Shown one piece after another: positions 1,834 to 22,701 of a stretch of DNA of 56,209 nucleotides. Source of the DNA: Clostridium brassicae (lineage in GTDB: Bacteria; Bacillota; Clostridia; Clostridiales; Clostridiaceae); contig NZ_JAPQFJ010000012.1 in the NCBI RefSeq assembly GCF_026738875.1, forward strand, positions 1 to 56,209, given 5' to 3'. The notes under the pieces are model-generated. The model did no database searches. It had not been told where the DNA came from and saw only the letters and a list, made by a program, of their open reading frames with translations. The position numbers and the translations under genes are program-made. The number at the start of each line of letters is the position of its first letter. Within the stretch, counting starts at the first letter, position 1.

Positions 1834-1885
1834 CTTCCCTCCCCAAACTCTTCGAAAATATTTCAAGATTGGTATTATGGCCTGG

Positions 1886-2134: not shown

Positions 2135-2875
2135 CTATATCAAGTACCACATAATTATTTTCTGGCCATAAATCATTGATATAAATGCCCCTATAGCTAT
2201 ATATGGACCAAATGGAATATAATCTTTTCTGCTTTTTTTCTTAGTAATTATAAGTAAAATACCAATTATAGCTCCTAATACTACAGCTAAAAATATCATC
2301 AAAATTGTCTTTTGCCATCCTAAATACAAACCACATAGTAGGCATATTTCAGCGTCTCCCCACCCCATACCTTTAGTTATAAGTATAATTAGAGCTATAA
2401 ATCCTCCTCCAATTAATCCACCTATAATATATGTACTTACATAATATCCTCTAATATAATTTATTAAAATAAAAATTATTCCTACTATTATTCCACTTAT
2501 TGTTGTTTTAAAATATATGTCTGTAGTATCCATGTCTATTATAGCTACTACTATTAAAAAACATGAAAATAGTAAAAACTTCACAAATTCTAATGTAAAT
2601 CCATAAAAACTATATAATATTACAAAAATAAATCCCGTAAAAATCTCCATTATTGGATATCTAATGCTTATTTTCTCCCCACAATAACCGCACTTTCCTT
2701 TTAAAAATATATAACTTATTACAGGAATCAAATGATAAAATTTTAATCTATTGCCACAGCTTGTACAATGAGATGGTGGATATGCTATAGATTCTTCTCT
2801 CGGTATTCTATATATACATACATTTAAAAAACTTCCTATAACAATCCCTAGTATAAATATAAAAATATAGTCCAT
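2135..2875 (-). CDS. pilD: Prepilin leader peptidase / N-methyltransferase
   Basis: A polytopic membrane enzyme of 246 residues that cleaves prepilin leaders after Gly and methylates the new N-terminus. Visible features are the N-terminal GSFLNVCIYRIPRE block, two CxxC pairs (HCTSCG near residue 37 and KCGYCGEK near residue 61), the first catalytic Asp in AIIDMDTTDIYF and the second in the GMGWGDAEI motif, the GxGD signature of this aspartyl protease family. It is the last gene of the pilus operon and would process all four pilin-like proteins encoded upstream. Confidence 0.95.
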   Translation of the reverse strand: MDYIFIFILGIVIGSFLNVCIYRIPREESIAYPPSHCTSCGNRLKFYHLIPVISYIFLKGKCGYCGEKISIRYPIMEIFTGFIFVILYSFYGFTLEFVKFLLFSCFLIVVAIIDMDTTDIYFKTTISGIIVGIIFILINYIRGYYVSTYIIGGLIGGGFIALIILITKGMGWGDAEICLLCGLYLGWQKTILMIFLAVVLGAIIGILLIITKKKSRKDYIPFGPYIAIGAFISMIYGQKIIMWYLI

Positions 2876-3005
2876 TATAACTACTCCCTTTATTATATTA
2901 AAAGTTAGGAGAACTTTGATATATTTTCAAAATTCTCCTTATGATTTAATTTACTACTTTTTTTATAACATAAAATCCTATTTATTGTGAATCGGAATTA
3001 AAAAT

Positions 3006-5057
3006 TCAATCTAATTTCGGCATTGCCTTCACATTTATTCTTAATATTTCTACAACTTTATTATCTATTTTCATAGAATTATTTATAATTGTATCTTTAT
3101 TTTTAGGAAGAATTGTATATGTTATTATAAAATTTTCTTCCTTATCATCAATAAAATTTTGTATATTATCATTTATTTCTTCTAAGGTACAATTCAAACT
3201 AAATGTATTTTTCTTATCTATTATGCCATCCTTTAATACTTTATATATTATCAATCTAGTGGTCTGTTTTTTGTATTCTGAACTTATATCAATAGCCATC
3301 TTTGATCTACTTCTATTGGCATTAATCAATACCCCTATAGTTTGTCTCATGTTCTCTACAGCATCAATATCATTATAGGTAATATTATCTGATCCTATAA
3401 TTTTTTTTCCTTCCTTTATACACTTTGAAACATCATTATTAGGAATAAACACACCTATTTTTGTTATAATAGGAGCTAAGCTATCTATTGTAAATTTATT
3501 TGAGTCAATTTTAACTGTTTGAATCTTATCATTAACTTTATATTTAACAGTTCCTTCTTTTAACTCATATTGCTTAGGTTTAACTCCAAATAAACTTATA
3601 GAAAAATCAATTGGTGAGGCTATATACTCTCCTTTTTCATTTTTAGTATAGCTTACTTTTAAAACTCCACTTAGTTTTCTAGAATTTTTATCGTAGTTTA
3701 TCCACTGAGGAAGGTCATCTAATACAACTTCCACACCTTCTGGAATAGACTCCTCAAAATATACTTCTCCAGTAATATCTGATTGTACTATATTTCCAAT
3801 ATGCTTATAAATTTCTTCTACTGTATTCATATTTTTAGCATAATACCTAGAAGCACCTGTATTTCTTGCTATCTCCGTAAGATTATAAGGATTCACTTCT
3901 TGACTTAGCCCAACAATAAAACTTTGAATATTCTTATCTTTATTAATAACTCTCCCTATCAAATTTGCATAACCAAGACTTAATCCACTTCTATCATTTT
4001 CTCCATAGTTTATTACATAAGTCACCTCACCATTATTATCCTCTTCATACCTACATCTAAGTATATTTCTAAACCCTATTTTACGCCAATTAATTATAGG
4101 TTCGTTTTGTTTTCCATATAATACATAGCCATTATTCCCTTCAGTAAAACTCACCGATTCTTTTTGTGCTGTAAAAGCAGTAGGATTTCCATCTGTCATT
4201 AAAATTATATATTTATCTTTATCTGCTTTACTCAATGAATAATAAGCTTTTCTAAGTCCATCTCCTATATTGGTTCCTCCTTCTGAAAGAATCAAATCAT
4301 ATATAGTTTTTACTGGTCTATATCCATACCAATGCCCTTCAGAATAATTAAAATACTCTCTTAAATTTTTATCTCTTATGTAAAACTGTTTTTTATCTTT
4401 ATTTCTATAGTATTCACTTTCTCCACATAATTGTACATCATATATCTTACCTGTAGACATATTTTTATAAGCATGCCTATACCTATCCCATAAAAAAAAT
4501 TCATTTTCATAATAATAACTACTGTATATTTCATTTCTATCAATATTTAATAAATTACAAGCTTCTTTTATATTTTTCTCATTAATAGTTAAATATTTGT
4601 TCAATTCCTTAACATCACACTGGAAATTTACATAACTACTATATCCTATAAGTTTTATCTTTACCTTACCACTTTCTATATCTTCTTTATTAAATTTTGA
4701 GATAAATTGTTTTAGCGTACTTTTCATTTTATCTAATCTGGTTTCATTAGAATTTTGAGAAATTTTATTATTCATACTACCAGAAGTATCTAAGACTAAA
4801 ACTATTTCTTTATCTTTGTTTTCATGATTTTCATCAATAATAGGCTTAGGACTTATTTTATAATTCACATTGAATTTTTCTCCTGAATCAAATCTATCTC
4901 CACTCAAATTTCTTTTAACTTCTATCAAATTTTCTTGTGATTTATATAAATTTTTAATTGTTACCTTATTATTTAATGCAAATACTTTAGTTGTTCCAAT
5001 TTCAGCTATAATAAAAATAGCCATAATAAAAAACACTAATAGTCTTTTTTTCCTCAT
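3006..5057 (-). CDS. Secreted von Willebrand factor A domain protein of the pilus operon
   Basis: The protein has 683 residues from the ATG at 5057, chosen because GAGGGG lies six bases upstream; the frame is open further, to 5078. The N-terminus is MRKKRLLVFFIMAIFIIAEI, a Sec-type signal peptide, not a prepilin leader. A VWA domain follows with a complete-looking MIDAS: DTSGS near residues 90-94, a Thr in GGTNIGDGL and an Asp in LMTDGNPT. A large insertion rich in Tyr and charged residues sits inside the VWA domain. After it come beta-rich segments and no LPxTG or other sorting signal, so how it is retained is unclear. Its position between the minor pilins and pilD suggests a pilus-associated adhesin, comparable in role to PilY1 or VWA-bearing pilus tip proteins. 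That role is inferred. Confidence 0.8.
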   Translation of the reverse strand: MRKKRLLVFFIMAIFIIAEIGTTKVFALNNKVTIKNLYKSQENLIEVKRNLSGDRFDSGEKFNVNYKISPKPIIDENHENKDKEIVLVLDTSGSMNNKISQNSNETRLDKMKSTLKQFISKFNKEDIESGKVKIKLIGYSSYVNFQCDVKELNKYLTINEKNIKEACNLLNIDRNEIYSSYYYENEFFLWDRYRHAYKNMSTGKIYDVQLCGESEYYRNKDKKQFYIRDKNLREYFNYSEGHWYGYRPVKTIYDLILSEGGTNIGDGLRKAYYSLSKADKDKYIILMTDGNPTAFTAQKESVSFTEGNNGYVLYGKQNEPIINWRKIGFRNILRCRYEEDNNGEVTYVINYGENDRSGLSLGYANLIGRVINKDKNIQSFIVGLSQEVNPYNLTEIARNTGASRYYAKNMNTVEEIYKHIGNIVQSDITGEVYFEESIPEGVEVVLDDLPQWINYDKNSRKLSGVLKVSYTKNEKGEYIASPIDFSISLFGVKPKQYELKEGTVKYKVNDKIQTVKIDSNKFTIDSLAPIITKIGVFIPNNDVSKCIKEGKKIIGSDNITYNDIDAVENMRQTIGVLINANRSRSKMAIDISSEYKKQTTRLIIYKVLKDGIIDKKNTFSLNCTLEEINDNIQNFIDDKEENFIITYTILPKNKDTIINNSMKIDNKVVEILRINVKAMPKLD

Positions 5058-5207
5058 AACAATCCCCTCAGATTTCAAACCTTTCTTTGTAATTTTACAT
5101 AAATTAAAGCTATTACAGTAAAACTTTAGACCTTTTACTCTTTATCCCATGTCTAACCATCCTAATACTTTCAGATGTATCAAAAACCATATCCAAAGTC
5201 AAAAATC

Positions 5208-5741
5208 TTATTTATTTCTAAAATAAACCTTGCTCTCCACAACAGATTTTACATCTTTGTAACTAAGATTTATTACTAAATAAATCCCCTCTGCTTCTTT
5301 TAAATTTTTAGTTTCCTCTACATTTATAGAAGATATATTCTCTCCTATGACCTTTCCCATTTTAGTAGCATCTAAATCTTTTTCCCCTCTTACATACCAA
5401 AGTTTATTATCTATAAGTTGAAAAACATCATAATCTTCCTCTTCAGAAGATGCACTGCTATTTTTTAATACAATTCTATCAATACTAGTACATTTTTTTT
5501 GTAAATTCAATTCTTCATTGTTTCTTTTTATAGATTGAATTCCTGATGACATCATACTTATTTTCACAAATTTCTCAAGAGCTTTTTCTCCTTGAGATTG
5601 TAACTCTATTTCTTTATCAACTTTATGTAAGTTACTATAGCTCGTTAAAAAAAAGTTAGAAATAGGTATTAAAATAATACCTATTAAAGCTATTACTATA
5701 ATTAATTCTATTAGTGTAATTCCTTTTTTTGTGTCCTTCAT
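5208..5741 (-). CDS. Minor type IV pilin with class III signal
   Basis: The protein has 177 residues from the ATG at 5741 and begins MKDTKKG|ITLIELIIVIALIG: a short basic leader, Gly before the cleavage site, Glu at mature position 5 and a hydrophobic helix. Ile replaces the usual Phe at +1. An ATG at 5789 is also in frame with its own AAGGAAG, but it would give a 23-residue leader and overlap the upstream gene by 19 bases. I prefer 5741, which has AAAGGTG eight bases upstream. The globular part resembles PilW/PilJ-like minor pilins only in general form. Operon position: after the giant pilin and before the VWA gene. Confidence 0.8.
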   Translation of the reverse strand: MKDTKKGITLIELIIVIALIGIILIPISNFFLTSYSNLHKVDKEIELQSQGEKALEKFVKISMMSSGIQSIKRNNEELNLQKKCTSIDRIVLKNSSASSEEEDYDVFQLIDNKLWYVRGEKDLDATKMGKVIGENISSINVEETKNLKEAEGIYLVINLSYKDVKSVVESKVYFRNK

Positions 5742-5770
5742 TTTTTGAACACCTTTTCTAATTTTATTTT

Positions 5771-8038
5771 TTATTTTAATATTTTCCATGACTTCCTTTT
5801 TATTAATTTTTCCCTTACAACATCTGTTTTTGTATTTTCATCTAAGTTTACAGTAATATCTGTTTCTACTTCAAAAAACTTATCTCTTATATTATCATTA
5901 AACACTTTCTGAAAATCTGAGTAATTATATGCTATTAATCTTTTCACATAATCCTCATCATAATTTATTTCTTTAAAACTGTTTCCTAGAAATTTTATAT
6001 CTCCTCCACAAATTATGCTGCCTTTAAACTTTAAATTTCCACAAAAACAAACATCTCCATTAGTTAAAATAATTCCTCCAAATTCTCCATTACCTTTGTT
6101 TTTATTAATTTTTATTAATTCTTTGTCCCCACCTATAGGAATATCCTTATCTCCTTCACAATAAAAAACATAAGATTTATTAGGATTATTATTTAATAAT
6201 ATAAAATTAGAATTACAATCCACACTACCATCTGCATTTCTTCCTTTAATTGTATTAGTCATTTTATTAAAATCTACTTTGTCACTTACCATCTTTACAA
6301 CTCTAGTAGTGTTATTAACATATTCTTTCTCTATAGGTAAATCTCCCATATAAAATATATTTCTTTTTAAATCATTAGCTTTATCTAAAAGCTCACTATA
6401 TTTTCCTAAGCTATAATTACTACCTTCTACTTTGTTTCCTAAACTATTTGATAGCACATCACCTATATTAAAATTTATTTTATTTATTTTTACCCCTTCA
6501 CCTCCAAGACTTAATTTATAGTCTTCATCATTATTATATGCCTCGTCTTCAAAGTAAGCTTTGAAATAGTCACTTTTATCAAAAACATTCATATCTACCC
6601 CATCAGCAAACTTAGTAACTAGGGTAAGCGGGGCCTTATATTCAAACTCTACATTATCTTCTATTAAACTTTTCCCACCCTTATGAGTTACAGGTTTACC
6701 ACTTATAAGTGGCATAGTATACGCTTTATAATTTCCTTTAATAGAAACCGATTCTCCTGTTTGATATTCTTCATTATAAAGCTTTATATATGAAGAACCA
6801 GCAATTAAAACCTCATCCTTTTTCCCTTTAGATTGTATGTTTATTGCCGAGCCCTTTCCTATATCTTCAGAATTAATTACTATAGAACTAGATTGATTAC
6901 TTTCCTTTGAATCTTTTCCATCACTAACACCGTAAAAACCACCTTCTATATTTATATGAGATTTTTCTCCATTTAGTTCTAAGTCATCCATAGTATAAAG
7001 GCTTCCTGTAAAATTACTTTCTTTATTCACATTCATTTGACATTGTTCTGATTGTGAATCTATAATTGCATTTTTAACATAAGCATCTCCATTAATATTA
7101 AATTTATTGTTTTCTCCGCTCAAAAGTATATTCTGAGCTGAAGATACGTTACCTAAAATAGATACTTTTGAATTATTTCCTTTTACTATAATTCCACTTT
7201 CAGTATTTTTTTTATCAATAACTTGTCCATCTTCTCCTACATTTTTTCCTTTTACGAATACATCACCTTTTACTTTAACATCAGTAGAATCCGCTATCAT
7301 GTCACCATCCACAGCTAACCCTTTTAGGAAAATTAGGTTTTCTGGAAGTTTCATAACTTTATTTTCTATGTAATAAACAGATTTGTAATCTGGAACACTT
7401 ATCTGATACTGACATGCTACCTTTCTTTCTAATTTTTTATGTAAAAATGTAGATGTAATTCCAACCTTCAATTTATTATCCTGTGAAAATTTCCACCCTA
7501 TATCATCATTATCCTCTGTAGAAAAACTTATTTTTGGTTTTGTTCCTTCACTATTAAATTTTTCTTTATCACCATTTTCATCAAATTCATAGTTGTCATT
7601 ATTGGTAAGTTCTTTACAAATATTATCTTCTATATACTTTTTATAAGAAGTTCCAAAAATATTGTTTTCAAACCTCTTTATTTCTTCTTCATTTATAGAA
7701 CCATCCCTATTAAAATAAGGGCTCTCATAGTTCTTATCAGAGATACGTTTTAGTCTCTCCTTTTCTATAATTTTTTGAAGCTTTTCTTGAGCTTTTTTCA
7801 CTTCTTCATTACCAGTATTTATAGCTTCATCTACCACTTTTCCCATAATTCCATAAGCTTTATCTACCCCCGCTTCTGAAGCATAAAGATTAGTATTTAG
7901 ATTTCCATTCATTGTTCTCATCTTATAGCTAGACATTGTTAAAGAAAGAATTGCACATCCTAAAATACTTAATATGCTTAAAACTCCTAGTACCATAACA
8001 AGTGAAAAACCTTTTTTAACTTTAAATTTATTTTTCAT
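5771..8038 (-). CDS. Giant minor pilin (PilX/GspK-like N-terminus, repetitive beta-rich body)
   Basis: 755 residues, several times the size of an ordinary pilin. The N-terminus MKNKFKVKKG|FSLVMVLGVL is a class III signal, but mature residue 5 is Met, not Glu. Lack of Glu5 is a known feature of GspK, the tip-capping pseudopilin. ASEAGVDKAYG after the helix resembles PilX-N proteins. Residues about 240-480 are a run of short strands rich in V, I, N and G (for example VKGDVFVKGKN, VSILGNVSSAQNILLSG, INGDAYVKNAIID), like a bactofilin or other beta-solenoid. A similar patch, GGIILTNGDVCFCGNLKFKG, lies near residue 660. It corresponds in position and size class to the large minor pilin PilK of C. 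difficile. The Shine-Dalgarno is GGAAGG, six bases before the ATG. Confidence 0.75.
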   Translation of the reverse strand: MKNKFKVKKGFSLVMVLGVLSILSILGCAILSLTMSSYKMRTMNGNLNTNLYASEAGVDKAYGIMGKVVDEAINTGNEEVKKAQEKLQKIIEKERLKRISDKNYESPYFNRDGSINEEEIKRFENNIFGTSYKKYIEDNICKELTNNDNYEFDENGDKEKFNSEGTKPKISFSTEDNDDIGWKFSQDNKLKVGITSTFLHKKLERKVACQYQISVPDYKSVYYIENKVMKLPENLIFLKGLAVDGDMIADSTDVKVKGDVFVKGKNVGEDGQVIDKKNTESGIIVKGNNSKVSILGNVSSAQNILLSGENNKFNINGDAYVKNAIIDSQSEQCQMNVNKESNFTGSLYTMDDLELNGEKSHINIEGGFYGVSDGKDSKESNQSSSIVINSEDIGKGSAINIQSKGKKDEVLIAGSSYIKLYNEEYQTGESVSIKGNYKAYTMPLISGKPVTHKGGKSLIEDNVEFEYKAPLTLVTKFADGVDMNVFDKSDYFKAYFEDEAYNNDEDYKLSLGGEGVKINKINFNIGDVLSNSLGNKVEGSNYSLGKYSELLDKANDLKRNIFYMGDLPIEKEYVNNTTRVVKMVSDKVDFNKMTNTIKGRNADGSVDCNSNFILLNNNPNKSYVFYCEGDKDIPIGGDKELIKINKNKGNGEFGGIILTNGDVCFCGNLKFKGSIICGGDIKFLGNSFKEINYDEDYVKRLIAYNYSDFQKVFNDNIRDKFFEVETDITVNLDENTKTDVVREKLIKRKSWKILK

Positions 8039-8049
8039 ATTATCCTTCC

Positions 8050-8904
8050 TTATTTCAAAAACGTTTTATAACCTTTATATACAATTAAAGATTCACCTGT
8101 TTTTTTGTTTTGTACTTCTACGGTAATTTTATAAATTCTATTATTTGTAGCGTTTTCACTACTTGAATCATCTTCAACTTTTAAAATCTCCTTATACTGC
8201 CTTGTTACTCCACTATGACTTATAACTTTAACTTCTGGATCTTTTTCTATAGTACTAAACTTAACAAAGTACAATTCTAATATGCTTCCAGTTTCATTAC
8301 TCGTATCAATTATAACTTTTTCTTTAAGCTCTCTATAAATATTAAACCTTATCTTTATTTTGTTTTCTTTTTCATCAATATTTTTACTTACTGTTACACT
8401 TTGTTTTTCTTCATCTCCATCTTTTAATGTAAAATCTATATTATACTTTTCTACGTTACTATTTTGGATATTAATACCTATATATGGTTTGGTAATATTC
8501 TGTGGTGAAAATATTATCCTATTATCTAATCTATTAAGTGAATTGATAATTAGACTGTTCTTCGGAAATGTAAATTCATAATCACAAATTATACTGTCAC
8601 TTCCATTTGATCCATTAATTAATGATTGTTTAAATTCGTACCCTTTTACAGGTTTTACAGAACAATTAACCCAAAACCTTCCTTCATCATACTTAGCTTC
8701 TTCATCTTTTATTACTGTTACATCTCCGCCTTTTATTTGCTCTATATACTTTTGTGCCAAATTAGTAGCTTTTTGTTTATCTTCTGAAGCTTTTGCAGTT
8801 TTAACTGAAGTAAAAACTAAATTTGATATGGGAGCAATTATTATTCCTAATATAGCAAGAGTTATAACAATTTCAAGAAGAGTAAAACCTTTTTTCTTTT
8901 TCAT
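8050..8904 (-). CDS. pilV: Minor type IV pilin, PilV-like
   Basis: 284 residues from the ATG at 8904, which has GGAGGAG five bases upstream; another in-frame ATG lies four codons earlier at 8916. The N-terminus MKKKKG|FTLLEIVITLAILG is a canonical class III prepilin signal with Glu at +5. The length and the EDKQKATNLAQKYIEQIK segment after the helix resemble PilV/PilJ-type minor pilins. The body is beta-rich with no recognised domain. It lies directly after pilO, with 15 bases between them. The symbol is by position in the clostridial pilus cluster and is tentative. Confidence 0.75.
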   Translation of the reverse strand: MKKKKGFTLLEIVITLAILGIIIAPISNLVFTSVKTAKASEDKQKATNLAQKYIEQIKGGDVTVIKDEEAKYDEGRFWVNCSVKPVKGYEFKQSLINGSNGSDSIICDYEFTFPKNSLIINSLNRLDNRIIFSPQNITKPYIGINIQNSNVEKYNIDFTLKDGDEEKQSVTVSKNIDEKENKIKIRFNIYRELKEKVIIDTSNETGSILELYFVKFSTIEKDPEVKVISHSGVTRQYKEILKVEDDSSSENATNNRIYKITVEVQNKKTGESLIVYKGYKTFLK

Positions 8905-8919
8905 TTTCTCCTCCATTTA

Positions 8920-10191
8920 CTACTTCCTGTTTACTGTAACTTTTCCACTTTCCTTAAAAACACTTATTCTATTTTTTTTATTATCATCATACTTTATGTC
9001 TACTACAACCTCTTTATCTGTTTCATTGTATATTTTTAAATTAGCTCCTGTATTATCTTCAGTAGAGTTTCTATTACATGAAAGAACAGATATATTTATT
9101 GTATCTCCTATTGTGACAAATTCTTCCCCTGTTCCATTAAAATTTCCTGGGTAATATTCTCTGCTATTTTTATATTTATAATAATATTTTTCATCTTTTT
9201 TAGTAAAATAAATCTCTATATTTTCAATACCTGGTGAATCTGAAATTATATAAGATTTTTTAGAACCGTCCCCCATTTTCCCCATAATTGTTGTAGGTAA
9301 ATCAGAACTTATAGGTACTACATTAACTCCAAAATCGTACTCTTTTTTAGATAAACTTTGTTTTGACGTTTTCTCATTGCTATCTGTATTATTTTTTGTT
9401 TTTAAAATACCATTATCAAAGAAAGGATTTGTTTTTCCATATTGATTTTTAAAATCCCAATTTAAATATTCACCGTCACCTTCTACAGAAAATTTAGGTA
9501 CAGAATAGAATTGAAGAGTTAAATTTCCAGCAAGCTTATCTCCATCAGCAGCAATACCTACGTTTTTTATTATTATTCTTTTATCGTATTCTGTTATATT
9601 GTCAATAAAATCCATGACATTTGTAAATGTGCCTTTGTAATTAATATTAATAACCATTTTTTCAGCTTGTATATCTATCTTTTTAGTTTTATCATTTTTG
9701 TCTTTTTCATTGACTTTACTATCTTTTTTATTATTTAAAGGGGTATCTTTACTTTCTTTATTTGTATCTATCTTAGAATATTCATCTACAATATCTTTTA
9801 ATATAAATTTAGTACTATTATTCTTCTTAGATTCTTGTTTCAATTTTACAACTTCTGGTTTAGCCATTGTAATAGAATTACACTCTATACCAGCTTTTTC
9901 TATCATATCATTCAATATAACTATAATTTTTTCTTCTTTTATTGAAGGAAATAACTCTACAACACTTCCATATATCTTAGCATTTATAATTGCTATATCT
10001 TTATTAATTTTCTTTTCATTCACTGCATTACTTTTTAATTTTTCTATTTCCTCATAATTCTTATTTACACTTTTCTTTAATTCACTTATTTTATGGTATC
10101 TAGGACTTAATAAAAATTTATAAATTCCAAGAAGCAGTATAACAACAAGAAAAATTATGATTAAAATCTTTTCTCTATTACTTAGTTTCAT
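8920..10191 (-). CDS. pilO: Type IV pilus inner-membrane alignment protein PilO
   Basis: 423 residues: a short cytoplasmic N-terminus, one membrane helix (KILIIIFLVVILLLGIYKFL), a coiled coil (about residues 30-75) and an extracytoplasmic domain. A Lys/Asp-rich linker at about residues 130-170 separates the coil from a PilO-like ferredoxin fold (NINYKGTFTNVMDFIDNI is typical). The remaining ~200 residues extend beyond ordinary PilO. It overlaps pilN by 14 bases, with an AGGAGG in the end of pilN, so the two are probably translationally coupled. PilO and PilN form the dimer that links the cytoplasmic PilM ring to the cell envelope. Confidence 0.85.
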   Translation of the reverse strand: MKLSNREKILIIIFLVVILLLGIYKFLLSPRYHKISELKKSVNKNYEEIEKLKSNAVNEKKINKDIAIINAKIYGSVVELFPSIKEEKIIVILNDMIEKAGIECNSITMAKPEVVKLKQESKKNNSTKFILKDIVDEYSKIDTNKESKDTPLNNKKDSKVNEKDKNDKTKKIDIQAEKMVININYKGTFTNVMDFIDNITEYDKRIIIKNVGIAADGDKLAGNLTLQFYSVPKFSVEGDGEYLNWDFKNQYGKTNPFFDNGILKTKNNTDSNEKTSKQSLSKKEYDFGVNVVPISSDLPTTIMGKMGDGSKKSYIISDSPGIENIEIYFTKKDEKYYYKYKNSREYYPGNFNGTGEEFVTIGDTINISVLSCNRNSTEDNTGANLKIYNETDKEVVVDIKYDDNKKNRISVFKESGKVTVNRK

Positions 10192-10744
10192 TATTGTTCT
10201 CCTCCTTAAAGGAACATATTATGTTAAAAGTATAACCCGCTCCTTCTTCTTTAGCTATTATGTTAGCTATATGTACTTCTTTAAACATGTCAGTCTTTTT
10301 AAGATTAAACTCAAATTCACCAATAGAATCTCTATCCTGAGATGACCCTTGTATATTAACAGTATCGCTTATATTCATAACTTGAAAAGTAACTTTCTGT
10401 GGAACTTCATTAGATATATTTTTTATAAAATTAGTATCTATTTTATCCTCTTTTTGGACAGACTTGTCCACTTTTTCAACTACATTATAATAATTATTCA
10501 ATAAATTCAGTCTTTTCTGTTTAATACTTAATTTTTGTGAAGCTTCTTTAAGTTCCTTAGAAGCTAACACATCTTTTTGTCTTGCAAGGTTATTATCTAA
10601 AGAATTTATCTTAAAGACAGTGTATAAATAAGCTGCTGATATTAATAATACAATAAATGATATAGAAATAATCACATAAGTAAATTTAAGGTTTAACTTC
10701 TTTTTTTCTTCAAAAAAAGGCTCAAAAAAATTAAAATCATTCAT
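10178..10744 (-). CDS. pilN: Type IV pilus assembly protein PilN
   Basis: 188 residues: a short cytoplasmic start (MNDFNFFEPFFEEKKK), one membrane helix (about residues 22-46), a coiled coil, and a small C-terminal domain with the PilN-like pattern VTFQVMNISDTVNIQGSSQD. It begins 12 bases after pilM and overlaps pilO. PilN's N-terminus normally docks into a groove of PilM; the conserved NxxP-type docking motif is only loosely present here (NFFEPFF). Confidence 0.85.
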   Translation of the reverse strand: MNDFNFFEPFFEEKKKLNLKFTYVIISISFIVLLISAAYLYTVFKINSLDNNLARQKDVLASKELKEASQKLSIKQKRLNLLNNYYNVVEKVDKSVQKEDKIDTNFIKNISNEVPQKVTFQVMNISDTVNIQGSSQDRDSIGEFEFNLKKTDMFKEVHIANIIAKEEGAGYTFNIICSFKEENNNETK

Positions 10745-10755
10745 ATTCTCACCTA

Positions 10756-11823
10756 CTATAATCTAATAATAGTTCCAATAGCATTTAAAATCATTTTTAT
10801 ATCTATATCATCATTATCCATGGCAATACTGTTTATTTGATTTATGACTTCTACAGGTATATGTAAAATATTCTCTAAAAATCTATCTATTCCTTTTATA
10901 TTGCTACTCCCTCCATAAATATATATTTTACTTATAGTCTTATCTTTATTTTTATTTTTAAAATAATCTAGCATCCTTTCTATATCTCTTACCCATCTTT
11001 CTACTACTATCTTGGCACAGTATCTTATCATTTCAGCCTCTGGATAATTTAAGTTACTCTCCTCATTTAAATCACATAATTGTATTTTTTTTTCTTCGGC
11101 ATCATTTTCTTCTATAAAAAGTTGACTTGCTATATTAGCATCAAGATAGCCTCCCCCTCCCTGGAGAATTTTTGTAAAGAGAAGTTTGCCTCCTGAAATT
11201 ATGCTTAATTCAATAAAATCATGTCCTAAATCTATAACTGCAGCAGTTTCTTCTAATCTATAATTCTTCTTATTTATTACTGTATCTGGACTATATGTTA
11301 AAAGCTTTGCAATACAGTTAAAACTAACATCTAAGGCCATAGGATCTAATTTTAATTCCTTCATAAGATTCCAATACCCTTTTGCAGTATTCTTCGGGTA
11401 TACTGTAACGCTAATACTACACATTTTTTCATCTAATGCTTCAAAATCTTCTATTTTTTTATATTTAACAATATATTCATCTAAATTTATAGGAAGATAT
11501 TGTTCTATTTCATATTTTGCTAATTCTTCTAACTCTTTATCCTTTGCTAGGGGAAGCGTAATAATTCTATTAATAACAGCTGTACTCTTAGAAACACAAA
11601 ATGCCTTTTTAGCTTTAATATCATCTTTTCTCAAAGTAGAATCAATAACCTCTTTTATAGTATCAATATCACTTATTTTTCCATCTTTAAAAGAATTTTC
11701 AGGAGTATCAATAAGCACAGCTTTATCAACTATAATCTTCTTACTCTTCCCCATTAATCTTGCTTCAATTATTTTTATATTTTTAGTACCAATATCAAAA
11801 GACACAAACTTATTATCAAACAT
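10756..11823 (-). CDS. pilM: Type IV pilus assembly ATPase-fold protein PilM
   Basis: 355 residues from the ATG at 11823; GAGGTG lies six bases before it, and an apparent GTG start three codons earlier lies inside that ribosome site. PilM is an actin/FtsA-like cytoplasmic protein that binds PilN. Visible features are FDIGTKNIKIIEA at the N-terminus (phosphate-1 loop), AAVIDLGHDFIELSIISGG (phosphate-2 loop) and KIYIYGGSSNIKGIDRFLE (adenosine motif). It is the first gene after the pilA-pilM intergenic hairpin and starts a tight pilM-pilN-pilO block. Confidence 0.92.
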   Translation of the reverse strand: MFDNKFVSFDIGTKNIKIIEARLMGKSKKIIVDKAVLIDTPENSFKDGKISDIDTIKEVIDSTLRKDDIKAKKAFCVSKSTAVINRIITLPLAKDKELEELAKYEIEQYLPINLDEYIVKYKKIEDFEALDEKMCSISVTVYPKNTAKGYWNLMKELKLDPMALDVSFNCIAKLLTYSPDTVINKKNYRLEETAAVIDLGHDFIELSIISGGKLLFTKILQGGGGYLDANIASQLFIEENDAEEKKIQLCDLNEESNLNYPEAEMIRYCAKIVVERWVRDIERMLDYFKNKNKDKTISKIYIYGGSSNIKGIDRFLENILHIPVEVINQINSIAMDNDDIDIKMILNAIGTIIRL

Positions 11824-11857
11824 ATTGTGCACCTCGTTTTTCTATAAGTAAATCTTA

Positions 11858-11887
11858 CACAGTAGTAATATAAAAATCACTACTGTG
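11858..11887 (-). other. Stem-loop between pilA and pilM
   Basis: On the minus strand CACAGTAGT and ACTACTGTG form a perfect 9-bp stem around a 12-base loop, with more possible pairing outside (TATAAG/CTTATA). No U-tract follows. In the operon it sits after the major pilin and before pilM. A hairpin here could protect the upstream pilA message or attenuate readthrough, so that pilin is made in excess over assembly proteins. Confidence 0.6.
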
Positions 11888-12018
11888 CTTATATAGGATA
11901 CTTTATTTTATACTGCCCTTATTTCCATCTTGTACTTTCATATAAATTTAAAGCAGCCATACTTATTTATATACAAATAGTAAATAAAAAACTCATGTTA
12001 AATTTTATTATTAGAAAT

Positions 12019-12486
12019 TTAGGGGTTGGTCTCCTGTTTGGGATATACTTGCTTATACTCTAAGCTCCCTTTTTTTTCATTTACAGATACAATTATTTTA
12101 CCATTTTCATCTATTTTTATATAAAAATCTCCATCACTTGTATTAGCTTTAGGCACTGAATCCAGTTGTTCTGTTATTTCAGTAGCCTCAGCTACTTTTG
12201 GTCCTGGTCCGTTTTTTTCTTCTGGGGTATACTGTATGTTTTCTCCCTTAGTTCCAACATACTTTTTGTCTTTAAATTCAATTGTATCTTTTGTAATTGC
12301 CATTGCAGCGGCATCTGCTATTATCTTACCATTTGTTTGATCCGCAGAATCTTTAGCATCATCCTTATGTCCCTTAAAATTAGGGACTACAATAAATGCC
12401 AATATCCCCAAAATAGCTATTACAATAATAAGCTCAATAAGAGTAAACCCTTTTTTCTTTTTAGAAATTCTTCTTGATTCTCTCAT
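12019..12486 (-). CDS. pilA: Major type IV pilin PilA
   Basis: 155 residues from the ATG at 12486, which has GGGAGG nine bases upstream; the frame stays open 13 codons further. MRESRRISKKKKG|FTLIELIIVIAILG is a canonical prepilin signal with a 13-residue basic leader, Phe at +1 and Glu at +5. The mature pilin is about 142 residues, rich in Lys, Asp and Glu, with no cysteine, so it has no disulfide-bonded loop, as in other clostridial pilins. It is flanked by larger gaps than the other pilus genes (about 257 bases upstream, 195 downstream), consistent with extra control of the major subunit. Confidence 0.93.
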   Translation of the reverse strand: MRESRRISKKKKGFTLIELIIVIAILGILAFIVVPNFKGHKDDAKDSADQTNGKIIADAAAMAITKDTIEFKDKKYVGTKGENIQYTPEEKNGPGPKVAEATEITEQLDSVPKANTSDGDFYIKIDENGKIIVSVNEKKGSLEYKQVYPKQETNP

Positions 12487-12742
12487 AAAATTGATCCTCC
12501 CTTTTGATAAATAATATTTAAACAAAAGTTAAAACTTTATTTTAACATTTTATTTTAAATCAATTTTTAAAATTTTCTAACATTTAATTTTATTAAATGG
12601 CTCACTTGTTTAATTACATGTTAATTATTCCACTTTTCCTCAACTACTTGTACTTTATATATTAATATGTCAACAAACCCATTTACTTAAATAAATTGTA
12701 TAATAATGAAATTTGCATGTAACTGTTATGTAAATTCCTTAA

Positions 12743-13948
12743 CTATATAGCATTATACATATCAAACATAGGCATAACCATTGCTATTACTATGAAACCT
12801 ATTATTAATCCCATGATTAAAATTAAAATTGGCTCTATTATGGCTGTCATTTTGGTTAGAGCTTGCTCAACTTCTTCTTCATAAAAATCAGCTGTTTTAT
12901 CTAAAACCTCATCTAAAGCACCAGATTCTTCTCCTATTTTTATCATAGCATTTACCATTGGTGGCAAACTTTCTATATTTCCTATAGCCTCTCCTAAAGT
13001 TATGCCTTTAACCACCTTTTCCCTAGAATTCATAAGCTGTTTCTCAACTAAAGAATTCCCTAATATTTTAGAGACTATTTCAATAGCACTTATCATTGTA
13101 ATACCACTACTTAAAACAGTAGCAAGTCCTCTTGTAAACCTAGCTGAAATAATTTTAATAAATGTATTTCCTATAAGAGGCATTTTTAACTTTATACTAT
13201 CAAACTTAATCTTTCCATTCTCTCTTTTTAATAAAGATCTAATGATTAAAATAATAATTATTATAAATAATAATATTAGATACCAATATAATTTTATTCC
13301 ATTACTCATAGCTATTATTACTTTTGTAGGGCCAGGAAGTTCTACATTGTTTCCCTCAAACATACTTATAAAGGTTGGCATTACATAGGTTAATAAAAAA
13401 GTAACTACAGTTATGCTAGCAATTATTAATATTATTGGATAAACTAATGCTATTTTTAGCTTATTATTTATCTTATTTTCTCTTTCATAGTGCTTGGACA
13501 TTCTTTCTATAATAACATCTAGTCTTCCTGTTTCCTCTCCCGCCTCTATCATATTAATAAGAAGAGGTGGATATACATCTTCAAACTTCTTTAATGACTG
13601 GGATAATGAAACCCCTTTTTGAATCTCTTCATATACAACTTGAAGACTTTTTCTCATTTTACTGTTTTCTGTTTGTTTCTTTAGTACATTTATAGAATTT
13701 AATATATCCATTCCTGCTTGTAAAAGTGTACAAAGCTGCCTACAAAATATAGCTAGATCTTTTGCTTTTACTTTTTTTAATTTAAGAGAAAATTCGATTT
13801 CTTTTTTAGAACTTTTTTCTTGAACTAAAATAGGATAATAATTGTTTTCTCTTATCATTGCCAAAACTTCACTTTTATTATTAGCTATAAACTCTCCATG
13901 TATTTTTTCCCCTTTTTTATTCATTGCTTCATATTTAAATAAAGGCAT
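12743..13948 (-). CDS. pilC: Type IV pilus inner-membrane platform protein PilC
   Basis: 401 residues with two tandem T2SSF domains, the usual size. Each half has the cytoplasmic motif followed by membrane helices: FCRQLCTLLQAGMDILNSIN near residue 68 and FTRGLATVLSSGITMISAIE near residue 271, plus EAGEETGRLD and KIGEESGALD repeats that align with each other. It is the membrane platform on which PilB acts. It starts 60 bases after pilB and is the second gene of the operon. Confidence 0.95.
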   Translation of the reverse strand: MPLFKYEAMNKKGEKIHGEFIANNKSEVLAMIRENNYYPILVQEKSSKKEIEFSLKLKKVKAKDLAIFCRQLCTLLQAGMDILNSINVLKKQTENSKMRKSLQVVYEEIQKGVSLSQSLKKFEDVYPPLLINMIEAGEETGRLDVIIERMSKHYERENKINNKLKIALVYPIILIIASITVVTFLLTYVMPTFISMFEGNNVELPGPTKVIIAMSNGIKLYWYLILLFIIIIILIIRSLLKRENGKIKFDSIKLKMPLIGNTFIKIISARFTRGLATVLSSGITMISAIEIVSKILGNSLVEKQLMNSREKVVKGITLGEAIGNIESLPPMVNAMIKIGEESGALDEVLDKTADFYEEEVEQALTKMTAIIEPILILIMGLIIGFIVIAMVMPMFDMYNAI

Positions 13949-14008
13949 TTTATCACCTCTTTGTAGTTAACAAAATATTAGCTAATTAAACAATCCATCA
14001 AATAAGAA

Positions 14009-15694
14009 TTACTCTTTCAAAAACGCTACTTTTGCCAATTCCTCCATAGTTGTTTCCCCTGCAAGTACTAGCCTTACACAAGCATCTTTTAAATTTTTAA
14101 TACCTAACTCCTGGTTAATTTCTCTAATTTCATCTCCACTTTTTTTGTTTTGAATTAATTCTCTATGTTTTCTTGTAATCTCCATTATTTCATATACTCC
14201 AATTCTCCCTAAATATCCTGTATTATTGCAATAAACACATCCTTTACCTTTATATAATTTTATGTTTTCTTCATCTTTTACCCCTAAAGCAATTCTTTCA
14301 TAATTTAAAGGAATATATTCTTCTTTACATTTAGGGCATATTTTTTTAACTAATCTTTGAGCAATAATACCAGATAATGACGTAGCTATAAGATAAGGTT
14401 CTATTCCCATATCTTCTAACCTCATAACCGCAGAAGCAGCATCATTTGTATGTATAGTACTTAAAACTAAATGTCCTGTTATAGCTGCACTTACAGCTAT
14501 TTCTGCCGTTTCATTATCTCTTATCTCTCCTACCATTATTATGTCAGGATCTTGCCTTAATATAGCCCTTAGTCCTGAAGCAAAAGTAAGTCCTGCTTTA
14601 GGATTTATATTTATCTGATTAACTCCTTCCATCATATACTCAACAGGATCTTCTATAGTAATTATGTTTGTACTTGTATTGTTAAGCTCTTTTAAAAGAG
14701 TATATAATGTAGTAGATTTACCACTTCCTGTTGGCCCTGTAACAAGAACAATTCCGTAAGGACTTTTTATTATTTTTGAAGATTTTTCAATATCTTCCTT
14801 AGTCATTCCTAGTTGTTCCTTGCTAAGCAAGAAATTATCTCTATGAAGAAGTCTTATAACTACTTTTTCCCCATGTATTGTAGGCATAATAGATACTCTC
14901 ATATCCACCACTTTATTATCCACATTAGTTATAATTCTTCCATCCTGAGGAAGCCTTTTTTCGGATATATCTAAATTAGAAAGTATTTTTATTCTTGTTA
15001 CAAGCGAACTTAAATTCTCTTTAGATATTCTTAAAACTTCCCTGAGCATTCCATCTATTCTATATCTTATCTTTACATACCTCTCAAAAGGCTCTATATG
15101 TATATCACTTGCTTTTGCTTTTACAGCATTATTTATAATAGAATCTATTAGCTTTACTACTGGAGCATTTTTAATATCATATAAATCCTCAATTTCTTTT
15201 TCCTTAATTTGAGGAATTTGAGATTTTGAAAGTTCTTCTGCTGCCTTTTCAACATATTCTGAAGAATAGTACTTATCTATAGCTTGTTCGATATTTTTTT
15301 TAGCAGACATTACAGGTATTACTTCTTTTCCTGTTGCTATGCTAACATCATCTACTGCAAATACATTTAAAGGATCTGCCATAGCAACTTTGATTTTATT
15401 ATCCTCATATTCAACAGCTATAAGTATATATTTTAAAGCTAGACTTTCAGGTATAGATCTTACTGCATTCTTATCTAATTCCATCATATCAAGATATACT
15501 CTTTCTATTCCCAACTGCATTTCAAGCACATCTAGTATATCATCCTCAGTTAATATTTTATCTTGAACTATTAGTTCTCCCAATTTTATACCTGTACTTC
15601 TCTGTTTCGCCAATTCGTTTTTTAGCTGTTCTTTTGTGATTTTACCTGCTTGTACCAGCAGATCCCCTAATCTTTTTTTATTATTATTTATCAT
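14009..15694 (-). CDS. pilB: Type IV pilus extension ATPase PilB
   Basis: 561 residues, full length. The N-terminal GspE/PilB domain (RLGDLLVQAGKITKEQLKNE) is followed by the hexameric ATPase with Walker A GPTGSGKST (about residue 322), an Asp box, Walker B DPDIIMVGEIRD and the His box TGHLVLSTIHT. A four-Cys zinc site is visible as CPKC and CVYC near residues 460-490. It powers pilus extension. The start has AAGGAG eight bases upstream. It is the first gene of the operon, about 84 bases after the riboswitch terminator. No pilT retraction ATPase is in this window. Confidence 0.96.
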   Translation of the reverse strand: MINNNKKRLGDLLVQAGKITKEQLKNELAKQRSTGIKLGELIVQDKILTEDDILDVLEMQLGIERVYLDMMELDKNAVRSIPESLALKYILIAVEYEDNKIKVAMADPLNVFAVDDVSIATGKEVIPVMSAKKNIEQAIDKYYSSEYVEKAAEELSKSQIPQIKEKEIEDLYDIKNAPVVKLIDSIINNAVKAKASDIHIEPFERYVKIRYRIDGMLREVLRISKENLSSLVTRIKILSNLDISEKRLPQDGRIITNVDNKVVDMRVSIMPTIHGEKVVIRLLHRDNFLLSKEQLGMTKEDIEKSSKIIKSPYGIVLVTGPTGSGKSTTLYTLLKELNNTSTNIITIEDPVEYMMEGVNQININPKAGLTFASGLRAILRQDPDIIMVGEIRDNETAEIAVSAAITGHLVLSTIHTNDAASAVMRLEDMGIEPYLIATSLSGIIAQRLVKKICPKCKEEYIPLNYERIALGVKDEENIKLYKGKGCVYCNNTGYLGRIGVYEIMEITRKHRELIQNKKSGDEIREINQELGIKNLKDACVRLVLAGETTMEELAKVAFLKE

Positions 15695-15777
15695 TATGTT
15701 TTCTCCTTAAAAGCTTAGTATTAGAAAACACCTACTCCAATATATTTCATTATTTGAATTTTTTTCTATTGAAATGT

Positions 15778-15813
15778 AAAAAAAAACCGACCACTTCTCG
15801 GAAATGGTGGGTT
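15778..15813 (-). terminator. Riboswitch-controlled intrinsic terminator before pilB
   Basis: On the minus strand AACC-C-ACCATTT pairs with AAGTGGT-C-GGTT (11 pairs, one C-C mismatch) around CCGAG and is followed by nine U residues. The 5' arm (AACCCACC) is also the 3' end of the c-di-GMP-II aptamer, so the aptamer and the terminator cannot form together. Ligand binding should favour readthrough into pilB, an ON switch. Confidence 0.85.
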
Positions 15814-15874
15814 GGACTACTAGGTTCTATATGCAAACGTCCAAATAAAGCATATAGTTTATCGTCTTCCCATC
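15806..15874 (-). ncRNA. c-di-GMP-II riboswitch aptamer upstream of the pilus operon
   Basis: On the minus strand: P1 GATGGG/CCCACC with one A-C mismatch; the joining segment AAGACGATAAA; P2 CTATATGC/GCATATAG (8 bp, perfect); and in the P2 loop TTGGAC, which pairs across P2 with GTCCAA, making a pseudoknot. The 3' strand CCTAGTAGTCCAACCCACC follows the class II pattern TTAGTAGTGCAACCGACC of the C. acetobutylicum aptamer almost base for base, with covariation in the pseudoknot (GC to CC, matched on the other arm). The order P1-P2-pseudoknot-AGUA-AACC is that of the GEMM-II/c-di-GMP-II class. C. difficile uses the same class in front of its main pilus operon. Identification is by motif reading, without a covariance-model search. 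Confidence 0.85.
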
Positions 15875-15948
15875 CTAAAACCCCAATTTTTAATTTGGAA
15901 ATTAAGGACGACTACATCTCTAAATAACGTATTATTATTTACTCTTTA

Positions 15949-15977
15949 ATTATACAAGATTTTAATTTCATATTAAA
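15949..15977 (-). promoter_or_regulatory. Candidate promoter of the pilus operon
   Basis: On the minus strand a perfect -10 TATAAT (15949-15954) is 17 bases from a weak -35 TTTAAT (15972-15977). Transcription would start near 15942 and run through about 70 bases of leader into the c-di-GMP-II aptamer. Confidence 0.6.
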
Positions 15978-16021
15978 GCTTAATTTGAAATTAATTGTAA
16001 AATTGTGCAAAATCTTTCTTG

Positions 16022-16699
16022 TTATTTATCTATATTTACTACTTCTTCATCTTTATTTAAAAATTTACTCCAATTTACATATATTTGAAATAAACTTGCT
16101 ACATCTTGTTCATTATATAAAAGTATCCTTTGTTTTTTCTCCTCAGGCATTCTATTCATATAATCAAAATCCTTCATAACCTTGCAGAAAGTCTTAGATA
16201 AGTTAGAACCACTTATAAGTTCACTTTCCCTTTGTATGTCAAATTTCTTTTCAAGGTTTTTAAGCCCTATATTTTCTCCTATTAATTTTTCATATTCTCT
16301 TTGCAAATCTATCTTTTCATAGCAATCATCTATGTTAAATCCTATCTTATTTTTATCAAATAAATAATCTATTACACCATAATCATTATTGCCAGAAAAA
16401 GTAACAATATATTTTTTATTATATTTTTCATGCATTTCAATAAAATATTCTTTAGCTAAATTCAAAATTGGAATTGCATCCTTCTTTCCTTCTATCATGT
16501 ACTGAGTTACTATTAACTCTTCAGAATTACTATCATAATAACAACATCCAAAAACTCCTATACAAATAGGCTTTTTATATAAATAATGCTCTAAATCAAA
16601 AAATAGTGCTTCCTTAAATAGGTCTTTCTTTCCATTAATGTCTAAGGCAAAATCCTCACAAAGCTCTTTTACCTTTATTCTGTTTTCTCTTTTAATCAC
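16022..16699 (-). CDS. RNase H-fold protein related to YprB (small, predicted 3'-5' exonuclease domain)
   Basis: 225 residues. FFDLEHY near residue 33 corresponds to the DxE metal motif of DEDD-type exonucleases, GNNDYGVIDYLF to the second Asp motif, and YNEQDVASLFQIY to the last Asp motif of the YprB RNase H-like family. It is similar in outline to the protein at 19218-20015, but shorter and more diverged, so the pair may be distant paralogues. It is transcribed away from the feo operon. The substrate is unknown; an exonuclease activity on nucleic acid is inferred from the fold and the retained acidic residues. Confidence 0.65.
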   Translation of the reverse strand: MIKRENRIKVKELCEDFALDINGKKDLFKEALFFDLEHYLYKKPICIGVFGCCYYDSNSEELIVTQYMIEGKKDAIPILNLAKEYFIEMHEKYNKKYIVTFSGNNDYGVIDYLFDKNKIGFNIDDCYEKIDLQREYEKLIGENIGLKNLEKKFDIQRESELISGSNLSKTFCKVMKDFDYMNRMPEEKKQRILLYNEQDVASLFQIYVNWSKFLNKDEEVVNIDK

Positions 16700-19217: not shown

Positions 19218-20015
19218 CTAATAGCTATTTTTAATTATATGTTGAAACTTTGATTCATTTATTTCTCCTTTAAGTATAGAATATATAATCCTAGAAGCTG
19301 CTTTCTTAGATATTCTATCTAAATCTCCTTCTATGTTTATCTGATTCTTTCTCAGCAAACTCTTTAAATATTTTAACTGTTTCTCAGTTATACAATCTTC
19401 TCTTCTTAATTCTTCATTATGATCTATGTTATAAACAACTCTAAAAATTTTAGGTAAATTTAATACATCTTCATAATTATGTAACATTATAGCCTCTGTA
19501 AGATCATAGTCTTCACTTTGAAGAAATTCATTATAAAGTTCTACGCTTATTCCTCCATCTATAGTATCTTCTCTTCCAATACCAAGAAACTTCTCTACGC
19601 CCTTTAAGCTACATCTTTCCATACCTAATTGTTTATGATAAGGCCTTATTATTCTATATAGATCTATATGTTTAGAAGGCAATGTAAAATCAACGTTATT
19701 TATCTCCATTCTTCTTTTAATAAAAGGCTCATCAAAAGCAATGCCATTATAAGAACACCAAACTTTATAATCAGTTAATGCTTTTCCAAAATTACACAAT
19801 ATTTTTTTCTCTTCACCTAGATTTTCTCCAAAATATTGTCTTATTATAAATTTGTTTTTTTCACTAAAATGACCACAAGAAATCAAAATAACATTATTCT
19901 TTATCTTATCAAATCCTGTTGTTTCTATATCAAAAAAAAGTATTTTATCTAATGCATAATGTCTAAATATTTTTTCGGGAACTTCTATATCTATTAAATG
20001 CTGTTTTAATAACAT
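19218..20015 (-). CDS. YprB-like ribonuclease H-fold domain protein (predicted exonuclease)
   Basis: 265 residues from the ATG at 20015, which has GGAGG five bases upstream; a TTG four codons earlier overlaps that site. Metal-binding motifs of a DEDD exonuclease are complete: LFFDIETTGF (about residue 25), WCSYNGIAFDEPFIKRR, and the final LHNYEDVLNLPKI. SKHIDLYRIIRPYHKQLGMERCSLKGVEKFLG is typical of the YprB C-terminal family. The last ~60 residues resemble the helical tail of YprB. Probably cytosolic; substrate unknown. Confidence 0.85.
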   Translation of the reverse strand: MLLKQHLIDIEVPEKIFRHYALDKILFFDIETTGFDKIKNNVILISCGHFSEKNKFIIRQYFGENLGEEKKILCNFGKALTDYKVWCSYNGIAFDEPFIKRRMEINNVDFTLPSKHIDLYRIIRPYHKQLGMERCSLKGVEKFLGIGREDTIDGGISVELYNEFLQSEDYDLTEAIMLHNYEDVLNLPKIFRVVYNIDHNEELRREDCITEKQLKYLKSLLRKNQINIEGDLDRISKKAASRIIYSILKGEINESKFQHIIKNSY

Positions 20016-20088
20016 CTTTACCTCCAAAACAAAATCATAGTTATAAACAGATTTCTTATCTTATTAACAAATTCTTAGGAATTTTACT

Positions 20089-21009: not shown

Positions 21010-22701
21010 TTACATTTTTTCTACTACTTCTATTGATAATAGGGATAGAGCATTTTTTATTACTTGGCAAGTTGCTTCTACCATTTTTAATCTTGCATTT
21101 TTAACTGATTGTTCTTCTGTAGCCATTATATTGTGAGCATTGTAGAATTTATTAAATGCTTTAGCTACATCTATTACATATCTTGTAACTATTGAAGGTT
21201 CTAGCTTATCTATACCATCTAAAATTTCTTCATTAAAGTTTCCAAGAACCTTTATAAGTTCAAATTCTTCTGTAGAAGATAGTTTGCTGAAATCAGCTTC
21301 TCCAGTTGATTCTCCTGCACGTCTTAATATACTCTTACCTCTTGCATAAGTATATTGAACATATGGCCCTGTTTCCCCTTCAAAGTTTAACATTTCATCC
21401 CATTTAAATACTATGTCTTTCTCTCTTCTATTTTTTAAATAAGTAAATATAACTGCTCCTATACCTACTTTTTGAGCAACTTCTTCTTTATTTTCAAGTT
21501 GAGGATTTTTTTCTTCTATTACTTCTTTAGTTTTAGCTACTGCTTCATTTAATAATTCCTCAAGGAAAATAACTTGACCTTTCCTTGTTGATAATTTTCT
21601 ATCTGCAAATCTTACAAGTCCAAATGCAACATGTTTGCAGTCATTAGCCCAATCATATCCCATTTTTTCTATAACTTTAAAAACTTGCTTAAAGTGAAGT
21701 GATTGATCTGAACCAACTACATATATACTCTTATAGAAGTCATAATTATTTTTTCTATAAAAAGCTGCTGCTAAATCACGAGTTGCATAGATAGTTGCTC
21801 CATCTGCTTTTTTTATTATGCATGGAGGCATATTTTCTTCTTCCATCATTACAACTTGTGCACCATTGCTTTCTACAAGTAAATTTTTACTTTTAATTTC
21901 TTCAATTACAGCATCCATCTTATCATTATAGAAACTTTCTCCAGCATAAGAATCAAATTTAACTCCCAAAACCTCATAAACTTTTTCAAATTCTTTTAAG
22001 CTTAAATCCTTAAATCTCTTCCAAAGTTCTACTTCTTCTTGGCATCCATCTTCTAATTTTTTAAAGTACATCCTTCCTTCGTCTTCTAAAGAAGGATCTT
22101 TTTCAGCTTCATCATGAAATTTAACATATATTCTTAAAAGTTCTTTTATTGGTTCTTTTTCAAGAGCATCTTCATCTACCCATCTCTTATAAGCAGATAT
22201 TAATTTACCAAATTGTGTTCCCCAATCTCCAAGATGATTTATACCTATACAATTATATCCTTCAAAGCTTAACATTTTGTATAATGAATTGCCTATAGAT
22301 GTACTAAATAAATGTCCTACATGGAAAGGCTTTGCTATATTAGGTGATGAAAAATCTATAGTTACACTCTTTCCTTTCCCTACTTCTGAAGAACCATATT
22401 TATCTTTTTCATTTAATATTTTTTCTATAGTATTTTGAGCAAATACACCTTTATCCATAAAGAAATTTACATATGGTCCTGCAGTTTCAATTTTTTCAAA
22501 ACCTTCTTTATTTAGTTTGGTCACTAGTTCCTCTGCAATCATATTTGGAGCTTTTCTAAAAGTTTTAGCTAATTGGAAACAAGGGAATGCATAGTCCCCC
22601 ATTTCTGGTTTAGGTGGATTTTCTATAAATTTTTCTATAACTTCTAATTCTAGTTCTATATGTTCTTTTAATCTTTCTGCAATAATTTTTTTGTAATCCA
22701 A
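21010..22701 (-). CDS. argS: Arginyl-tRNA synthetase
   Basis: 563 residues, a complete class Ia enzyme that charges tRNA-Arg. The N-terminal Add-1 domain is followed by the HIGH-type motif [17 protein letters not shown] (about residue 120), the KMSKS-like LSTRKGQVI and the C-terminal anticodon-binding DALR domain, ending LSIEVVEKM. The start codon is TTG at 22701, with GGGAGG about eight bases upstream; no ATG fits. A T-box leader lies upstream. The stop codon directly abuts the 81-bp repeat array. Confidence 0.97.

Follow-up and report, generated by a model that had tools for sequence, protein, structure and literature searches.

Does the RNA leader of a clostridial type IV pilus operon still answer to c-di-GMP? 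The window, that is, the whole 56,209-nucleotide stretch of DNA analyzed here, is contig C4 of the 4.1-Mb genome of Clostridium brassicae (G000). An initial annotation had proposed that the leader before pilB shows the full c-di-GMP-II layout and acts as an ON switch for 11 pilus genes. Control of a pilus operon by a c-di-GMP-II switch is already known: PMC11477304 describes class II switches as transcriptional ON switches, one of which controls a C. difficile pilin operon (CD3513), the precedent invoked by the annotation. The C. difficile switch resembles the window leader in aptamer class and in kind of target; it is listed there as class II without remark, whereas the window copy has diverged, and the two are likened by description, not by sequence. 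Among the literature matches listed for prior reports, no title pointed to a rewired class II element in the leader of pilB, and the c-di-GMP part of PMC3764141 concerns class I.

The pilus cluster lies on the minus strand and comprises 11 genes, from pilB to pilD. The first of them, pilB (14009..15694), encodes an assembly ATPase with an MshEN domain (T2SSE 472 bits, MshEN 57.6 bits; NF053729 57.4 bits, cut-off 38); because the PilB and GspE equivalog models both give high scores that fall below their cut-offs, its name rests on domains and context. It is followed by pilC (12743..13948, T2SSF), a pilin gene with profile matches (12019..12525), pilM (10756..11832) and pilN (10178..10744), both assigned by Pfam, and a PilO-like gene named from gene order (8920..10191), which has no Pfam match and a weak, implausible NCBIfam match of 19 bits. 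Two minor pilin genes with N_methyl matches (8050..8916 and 5208..5789) flank one for a large pilus-cluster protein without a Pfam match, which may be PilX-like to judge by its position (5771..8038). The last two genes encode a VWA-domain protein, perhaps a tip adhesin, although that role is a guess (3006..5078), and the prepilin peptidase PilD (2135..2875). A 13-bp hairpin with a poor U tract, a candidate terminator (2907..2939, minus strand; -16.3 kcal/mol, z -5.8), sits between these two genes, so pilD may be uncoupled from the operon. The annotation had counted the genes correctly, whereas its statement that all 11 are turned on may not extend to pilD. No further riboswitch was found inside the operon (1800-15740, E <=0.5). 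Upstream of the leader, two genes of the RNase_H_2 superfamily (16022-16699 and 19218-20027, minus strand) lie on either side of a feoA/feoB pair; in several relatives the former has, as judged by eye, stayed in its place upstream of pilB.

The diverged leader occupies 15786-15879 on the minus strand, between this RNase_H_2 gene and pilB, both of which are also on the minus strand, in the place that the annotation had given it. The 15778-15977 range assigned to it fits the leader together with a promoter-like site, TTAATA-16-TATAAT (15949..15976, minus strand; 10/12 matches), of which TATAAT is retained in the sister species described below; with six such sites observed in the region and 4.6 expected by chance, their number matches chance and the site is weak evidence for a promoter. 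Infernal aligned the whole length of RF01786 (positions 1-84) to 15797-15879 (minus strand) with 28.8 bits, corresponding to an E value of 2.4e-4 when 281 bases were compared with 4227 families and of 8.2e-4 for the whole genome. With a model derived from 50 aptamers of the family, the same copy scored 36.0 bits (E 4.5e-9, 136,664 bases); this was the lowest score among 50 matches, whose 49 sources include weak ones chosen deliberately. The match expected from the c-di-GMP-II model is significant, but both the window copy and that of the sister species (32.1 bits) miss the Rfam gathering cut-off of 53.5 bits. At gathering level, an Rfam scan of the whole window listed no c-di-GMP-II element; its sole entry was a T-box leader (22898-23118, minus strand; 114 bits) upstream of the arginyl-tRNA synthetase gene (21010-22701).

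A comparison within the genus bears on the descent of the leader. In another species (G003), whose PilB is 68% identical to that of the window, a canonical class II copy of 73 bits (L013, L119) precedes the orthologous pilB. The two leaders share their place, 79% identity across 94 bases (blastn) and an identical terminator 3' arm, GAAGUGGUCGG; the G003 leader differs in being canonical, with a GCAC/GUGC pseudoknot, the sequence GGAG and a fully paired terminator. By these alignments, the leader is genuinely related to the c-di-GMP-II riboswitch by descent and lies below Rfam's own membership standard. With RF01786 it has in common the end-to-end alignment, P2, a possible loop pseudoknot, AGUAG, AACC and a terminator drawn from the 3' end of the aptamer. 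It departs from the family in its score (28.8 versus 53.5 bits), the absence of the kink-turn G.A pairs, a pseudoknot that would be slid and continuous, the loss of the P3 closing pair and a C.C mismatch in the terminator.

For the core of the aptamer, we compared the window copy with other class II loci. Removing L132 and L159 from 113 loci left 111, namely, 2 variant copies and 109 others; since the latter combine the best part of a longer list, the genus loci and weak loci sought deliberately, counts over them do not describe a random sample. Sixty-five distinct relatives were obtained from 66 gapless 84-mers, with the aberrant L164 and L168 set aside, and 50 of the 66 form alignment A1. 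Near-invariant positions, 27 in all, were defined from 50 of the 100 aligned rows. Eight of the 27 are broken in the window copy, two of them as gaps, and nine in that of the sister species, compared with none in 60 of the 100 rows.

Several class II loci depart from the canonical form in ways of their own. Genome G005 holds three near-identical class II aptamers (L012, L014 and L015:1501-1583): L012 and L014 have an ACGC/GCGU pseudoknot and a P3 closed by A-U instead of C-G, one base change breaks a pseudoknot pair in L015, and the downstream flanks of L012 and L015 also look alike, as would those of a repeated element. Another six loci (L159, L161, L162, L163, L165, and L166) form a subtype with U39-A67 (UCAC/GUGA) and 45.8 to 58.8 bits, straddling the Rfam cut-off. 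L168:1501-1584 of genome G145 looks like a decayed class II copy, with 33.3 bits, 8/27 near-invariant positions broken and two of four canonical pseudoknot pairs.

What is kept in the window copy includes P2, whose 5' strand CUAUAUGC (15850..15857, minus strand) pairs with GCAUAUAG (15827..15834) at all eight positions; relative to G003, one of these pairs is G-C in place of A-U, a two-sided difference. AGUAG and AACC are present, and the near-invariant A68, A69, C70, and C71 are all retained. The neighboring change of G72 to C (AACCG to AACCC) was considered as a diagnostic feature and rejected, as 3 of the 65 relatives have C and 8 have U at this position. P1 has several mismatches. The losses are concentrated at G19, A20, G55, A56, and G57, which are found in 64, 65, 63, 65, and 65 of the 65 relatives, respectively. 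We read these letters as the kink-turn and the closing position of P3; PMC4316175 tabulates a kink-turn for structure 3Q3Z, and the assignment of letters is our own. At 15858..15863 (minus strand), the window copy has GAUAAA where relatives have NNNGAN, which changes G19 of one kink-turn strand to A, and at 15824..15826 it has AAC where relatives have GAG, on the strand that includes the P3 closing G. The five positions read A, A, A, C, gap in the family alignment and A, A, gap, A, C in the Rfam alignment, where A56 is kept; the placement of the gap at 55-57 varies between alignments. The kink-turn G.A pairs (G19 A20/G55 A56) and the P3 closing G57 are lost in the window copy.

The pseudoknot is altered as well. 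Every one of the 50 rows of A1 has its canonical register (columns 39-42 with 64-67) paired. In the window copy, only one of the four pairs of this GCAC/GUGC register can form, and in the sister species, two. The loop strand reads GGAC, compared with GGGCAC in G003, and the 3' strand carries a G-to-C change. A slid pairing is available in its place: UUGGAC in the loop (15839..15844, minus strand) is the 6-bp complement of GUCCAA (15812..15817, minus strand) and takes in two adenines 3' of the pseudoknot strand. As we read it, the pseudoknot of the relatives consists of two halves, GG/CC and GCAC/GUGC, flanking two adenines at which c-di-GMP sits in the class II crystal structure. A run of at least six Watson-Crick pairs between loop and 3' strand arose in 0.4% of shuffled loops and occurs at 1 of the 109 other loci. 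Conversely, the arrangement of UGG-NNNN in the loop, followed downstream by the complement and AACC, is found at 94 of the 109 and in neither variant copy. The slid pseudoknot is a possible pairing that may not form. When the aptamer was folded without the terminator and without P0, a 5' hairpin, the 3' strand was placed with a probability of >0.9 in a nested structure, GAC/GUC plus GGG/CCC, in which both G66 to C and G72 to C also form pairs; the 3'-strand changes are therefore not unique evidence for the pseudoknot. Covariation counts between the two species (alignment A3) gave no two-sided change and an invariant pseudoknot, so this comparison supports nothing by itself.

The intrinsic terminator, AACCCACCAUUUC-CGA-GAAGUGGUCGGUU (15786..15813, minus strand; U tract 15778-15786), is the single terminator-like site on either strand of 15500-16300 (0.2 expected from shuffles), where it was placed at 15808-15790 (minus strand). 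Its 5' arm, AACCCACCAUUUC, coincides with the aptamer's 3' end, just as the annotation had described. Because of this overlap, aptamer folding and termination should be mutually exclusive, a geometry in which the folded aptamer would be the ON state. ON polarity fits this geometry and the C. difficile precedent. The terminator has a C.C mismatch in its arm and a predicted strength of -12.2 kcal/mol, compared with -18.0 kcal/mol for the G003 terminator, which has no mismatch, and -15.0 and -16.1 kcal/mol at two other loci. The 3' arm of P0 (15871..15910, minus strand; -11.7 kcal/mol) overlaps the 5' strand of P1, and the sister species has a similar architecture (-10.2 kcal/mol). We gave P0 little weight as a special feature, since comparable upstream hairpins occur at 17 of the 109 other loci. 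When the leader is folded in full, the structure of lowest energy comprises P0 and the terminator, i.e., the OFF state, in both species.

These results bear directly on the view that the leader still works as a c-di-GMP ON switch, being a very diverged class II aptamer in which ligand binding blocks termination. Such a switch would agree with the whole-length covariance match, the retention of P2, AGUAG, and AACC, the terminator overlap and the C. difficile precedent, as well as with the nine GGDEF matches per species and the MshEN domain of PilB. AACCC alone is no argument against it either, because G72 is found in 54 of the 65 relatives and is not invariant. We nevertheless regard this view as unlikely in light of the score under the Rfam cut-off, the loss of both the kink-turn G.A pairs and the pair closing P3, the mostly unpaired canonical register and a slid pairing that would occupy the adenines. 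Of the ON switch originally proposed, geometry, ancestry, and position stand; control by c-di-GMP finds no support in a sequence with these changes in kink-turn and pseudoknot register, pairable adenines and a C.C mismatch, and it is ancestry alone that speaks for sensing by the window copy. The full layout likewise reduces to P2, AGUAG, AACC, and a possible 6-bp loop pseudoknot, set against the missing kink-turn pairs, the lost register and the eight broken positions. The annotation thus picked out a genuine element, correctly placed and with the right geometry, and over-read both its layout and its response.

The diverged version is narrowly distributed. G006 is a sister species with a 97% identical PilB and the same version of the leader. 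When a variant model made from these two copies was run on 225 genomes of the order, G000 and G006 scored 111.3 and 116.9 bits; the next score, 54.6 bits, belonged to the G003 leader, which ranks directly below the two variant species. No third carrier was found in this search, in which at most the best 20 candidates per genome were judged by score under strict filters. Searching 206 genomes of the family at the DNA level (best 4 candidates per genome) gave the same two carriers only, and a plasmid search gave no match to the variant leader. Genome-wide searches with RF01786 and RF01051 (E <=0.01, at most the best 150 candidates per genome) found no c-di-GMP-I and no second class II riboswitch in either species. 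The genus set has 8 genomes. Four of them (G001, G002, G003, and G005) have 3 to 6 class I switches and 13 to 30 GGDEF matches; G004, whose pilB leader looks by eye like that of C. homopropionicum, is without class I or II switches and has 31 GGDEF matches, and G007 has no such switches and 6 GGDEF matches. No class II match was found within 1.5 kb upstream of the orthologous pilB in G001, G002, G004, and G005. G002 also has a variant riboswitch of the c-di-GMP-I-GGC type (RF03167, 64.2 bits; L005:2711-2798), with a class II aptamer some 1.1 kb away.

The leader might then be a decaying relic whose use was lost as the lineage dropped c-di-GMP riboswitches, with transcription passing through or around it. 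The terminator weaker than that of G003, the failure to find another c-di-GMP-I or -II switch among the candidates scored in G000 and G006, and the class II matches missing upstream of pilB in the four genomes above would all suit decay. It is harder to reconcile with a P2 retained through a two-sided difference from G003, with the perfect pair of slid strands and with the pattern of change between the two species: their differences leave the P2, P3, and terminator pairs intact, and the U tract and terminator 3' arm are identical. Within the aptamer and terminator, 5 of 93 aligned sites differ, with 2 gap columns, a lower proportion than in pilB, where 32 of 181 four-fold sites do (p 0.005). 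Elsewhere in the 5' UTR, change is slow too, at 7 of 85 sites, and constraint on the aptamer itself is therefore not cleanly shown. On balance, we consider a relic improbable.

A variant class for a new ligand, either another dinucleotide or an unrelated metabolite, is more improbable still. Several core positions are altered together and in common to the two species, and Rfam has variant families of c-di-GMP aptamers, as named in PMC9943018; one of them is the RF03167 element matched in G002. A new class would have to be reconciled, however, with one locus per genome in two species, a gene context that suggests no other ligand, and no further carrier among the 225 order genomes (at most the best 20 candidates per genome).

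Our preferred reading, to which we give slightly less than even confidence, is that the leader is a remodeled antiterminator derived from c-di-GMP-II, with little or altered ligand control. According to this model, an attenuator descended from a c-di-GMP-II riboswitch would have had its sensing core rewired in the common ancestor of the two sister species. The slid loop strand and the G-to-C change in the 3' strand would create one continuous six-pair helix, UUGGAC/GUCCAA, in which the pseudoknot halves merge and the adenines are consumed by pairing with U. With the kink-turn pairs gone and the terminator weaker, antitermination would most likely now require little or no c-di-GMP, or depend on another trigger, and the operon would be ON by default; AACCCACCAUUUC would still be contested between the aptamer helices and the terminator. 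The canonical G003 copy with its identical terminator 3' arm, the core breaks shared by both species, the lost arrangement of loop and 3' strand, the rarity of a six-pair run elsewhere and the weaker terminator favor the remodeled antiterminator. So do the lower divergence of aptamer plus terminator relative to four-fold sites of pilB and the failure to find another c-di-GMP-I or -II switch among the candidates scored in G000 and G006. Against it are the OFF minimum-energy fold, the competing nested pairing, the retention of the adenines and AACC, the very close relationship of the two species, which together represent one evolutionary event, and the fact that L168 breaks equally many near-invariant positions. 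The more specific proposition that a riboswitch was made ligand-free, or was given a new ligand, by collapse of its ligand-binding bulge into a continuous pseudoknot helix, with a canonical copy in the genus to set against two rewired sisters, is possible but rather doubtful.

Even without control by the RNA, c-di-GMP may still act on the pilus machine through PilB, since its MshEN domain is of a c-di-GMP-binding type and the pilus may respond via the protein. The MshEN domain binds c-di-GMP via two 24-residue motifs, RLGxx..LxxxLxxQ (PMC5013675). The strict published pattern has no exact match in the window PilB; by eye, a single hydrophobic site is off in motif I, whereas in motif II an R and a G are each replaced by K and an L by I.

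Elsewhere in the genus, pilB and a pilC-like gene are separated by a canonical c-di-GMP-I riboswitch that scores 79.2 bits (G001, L120:3185-3268). Like the window leader, it is a c-di-GMP aptamer beside an orthologous pilB, but it differs in belonging to an unrelated aptamer class and in its position. Because an unrelated aptamer adjoins pilB in this species, riboswitch control of these pili has changed more than once in the genus. A leader without the pseudoknot register and kink-turn letters of its family, but with the strands that compete against a terminator retained, would show how a ligand switch can be disarmed or retuned in few steps, and with a canonical copy at the same gene in the same genus available for comparison, the locus would offer a natural test case for the change or death of a switch.
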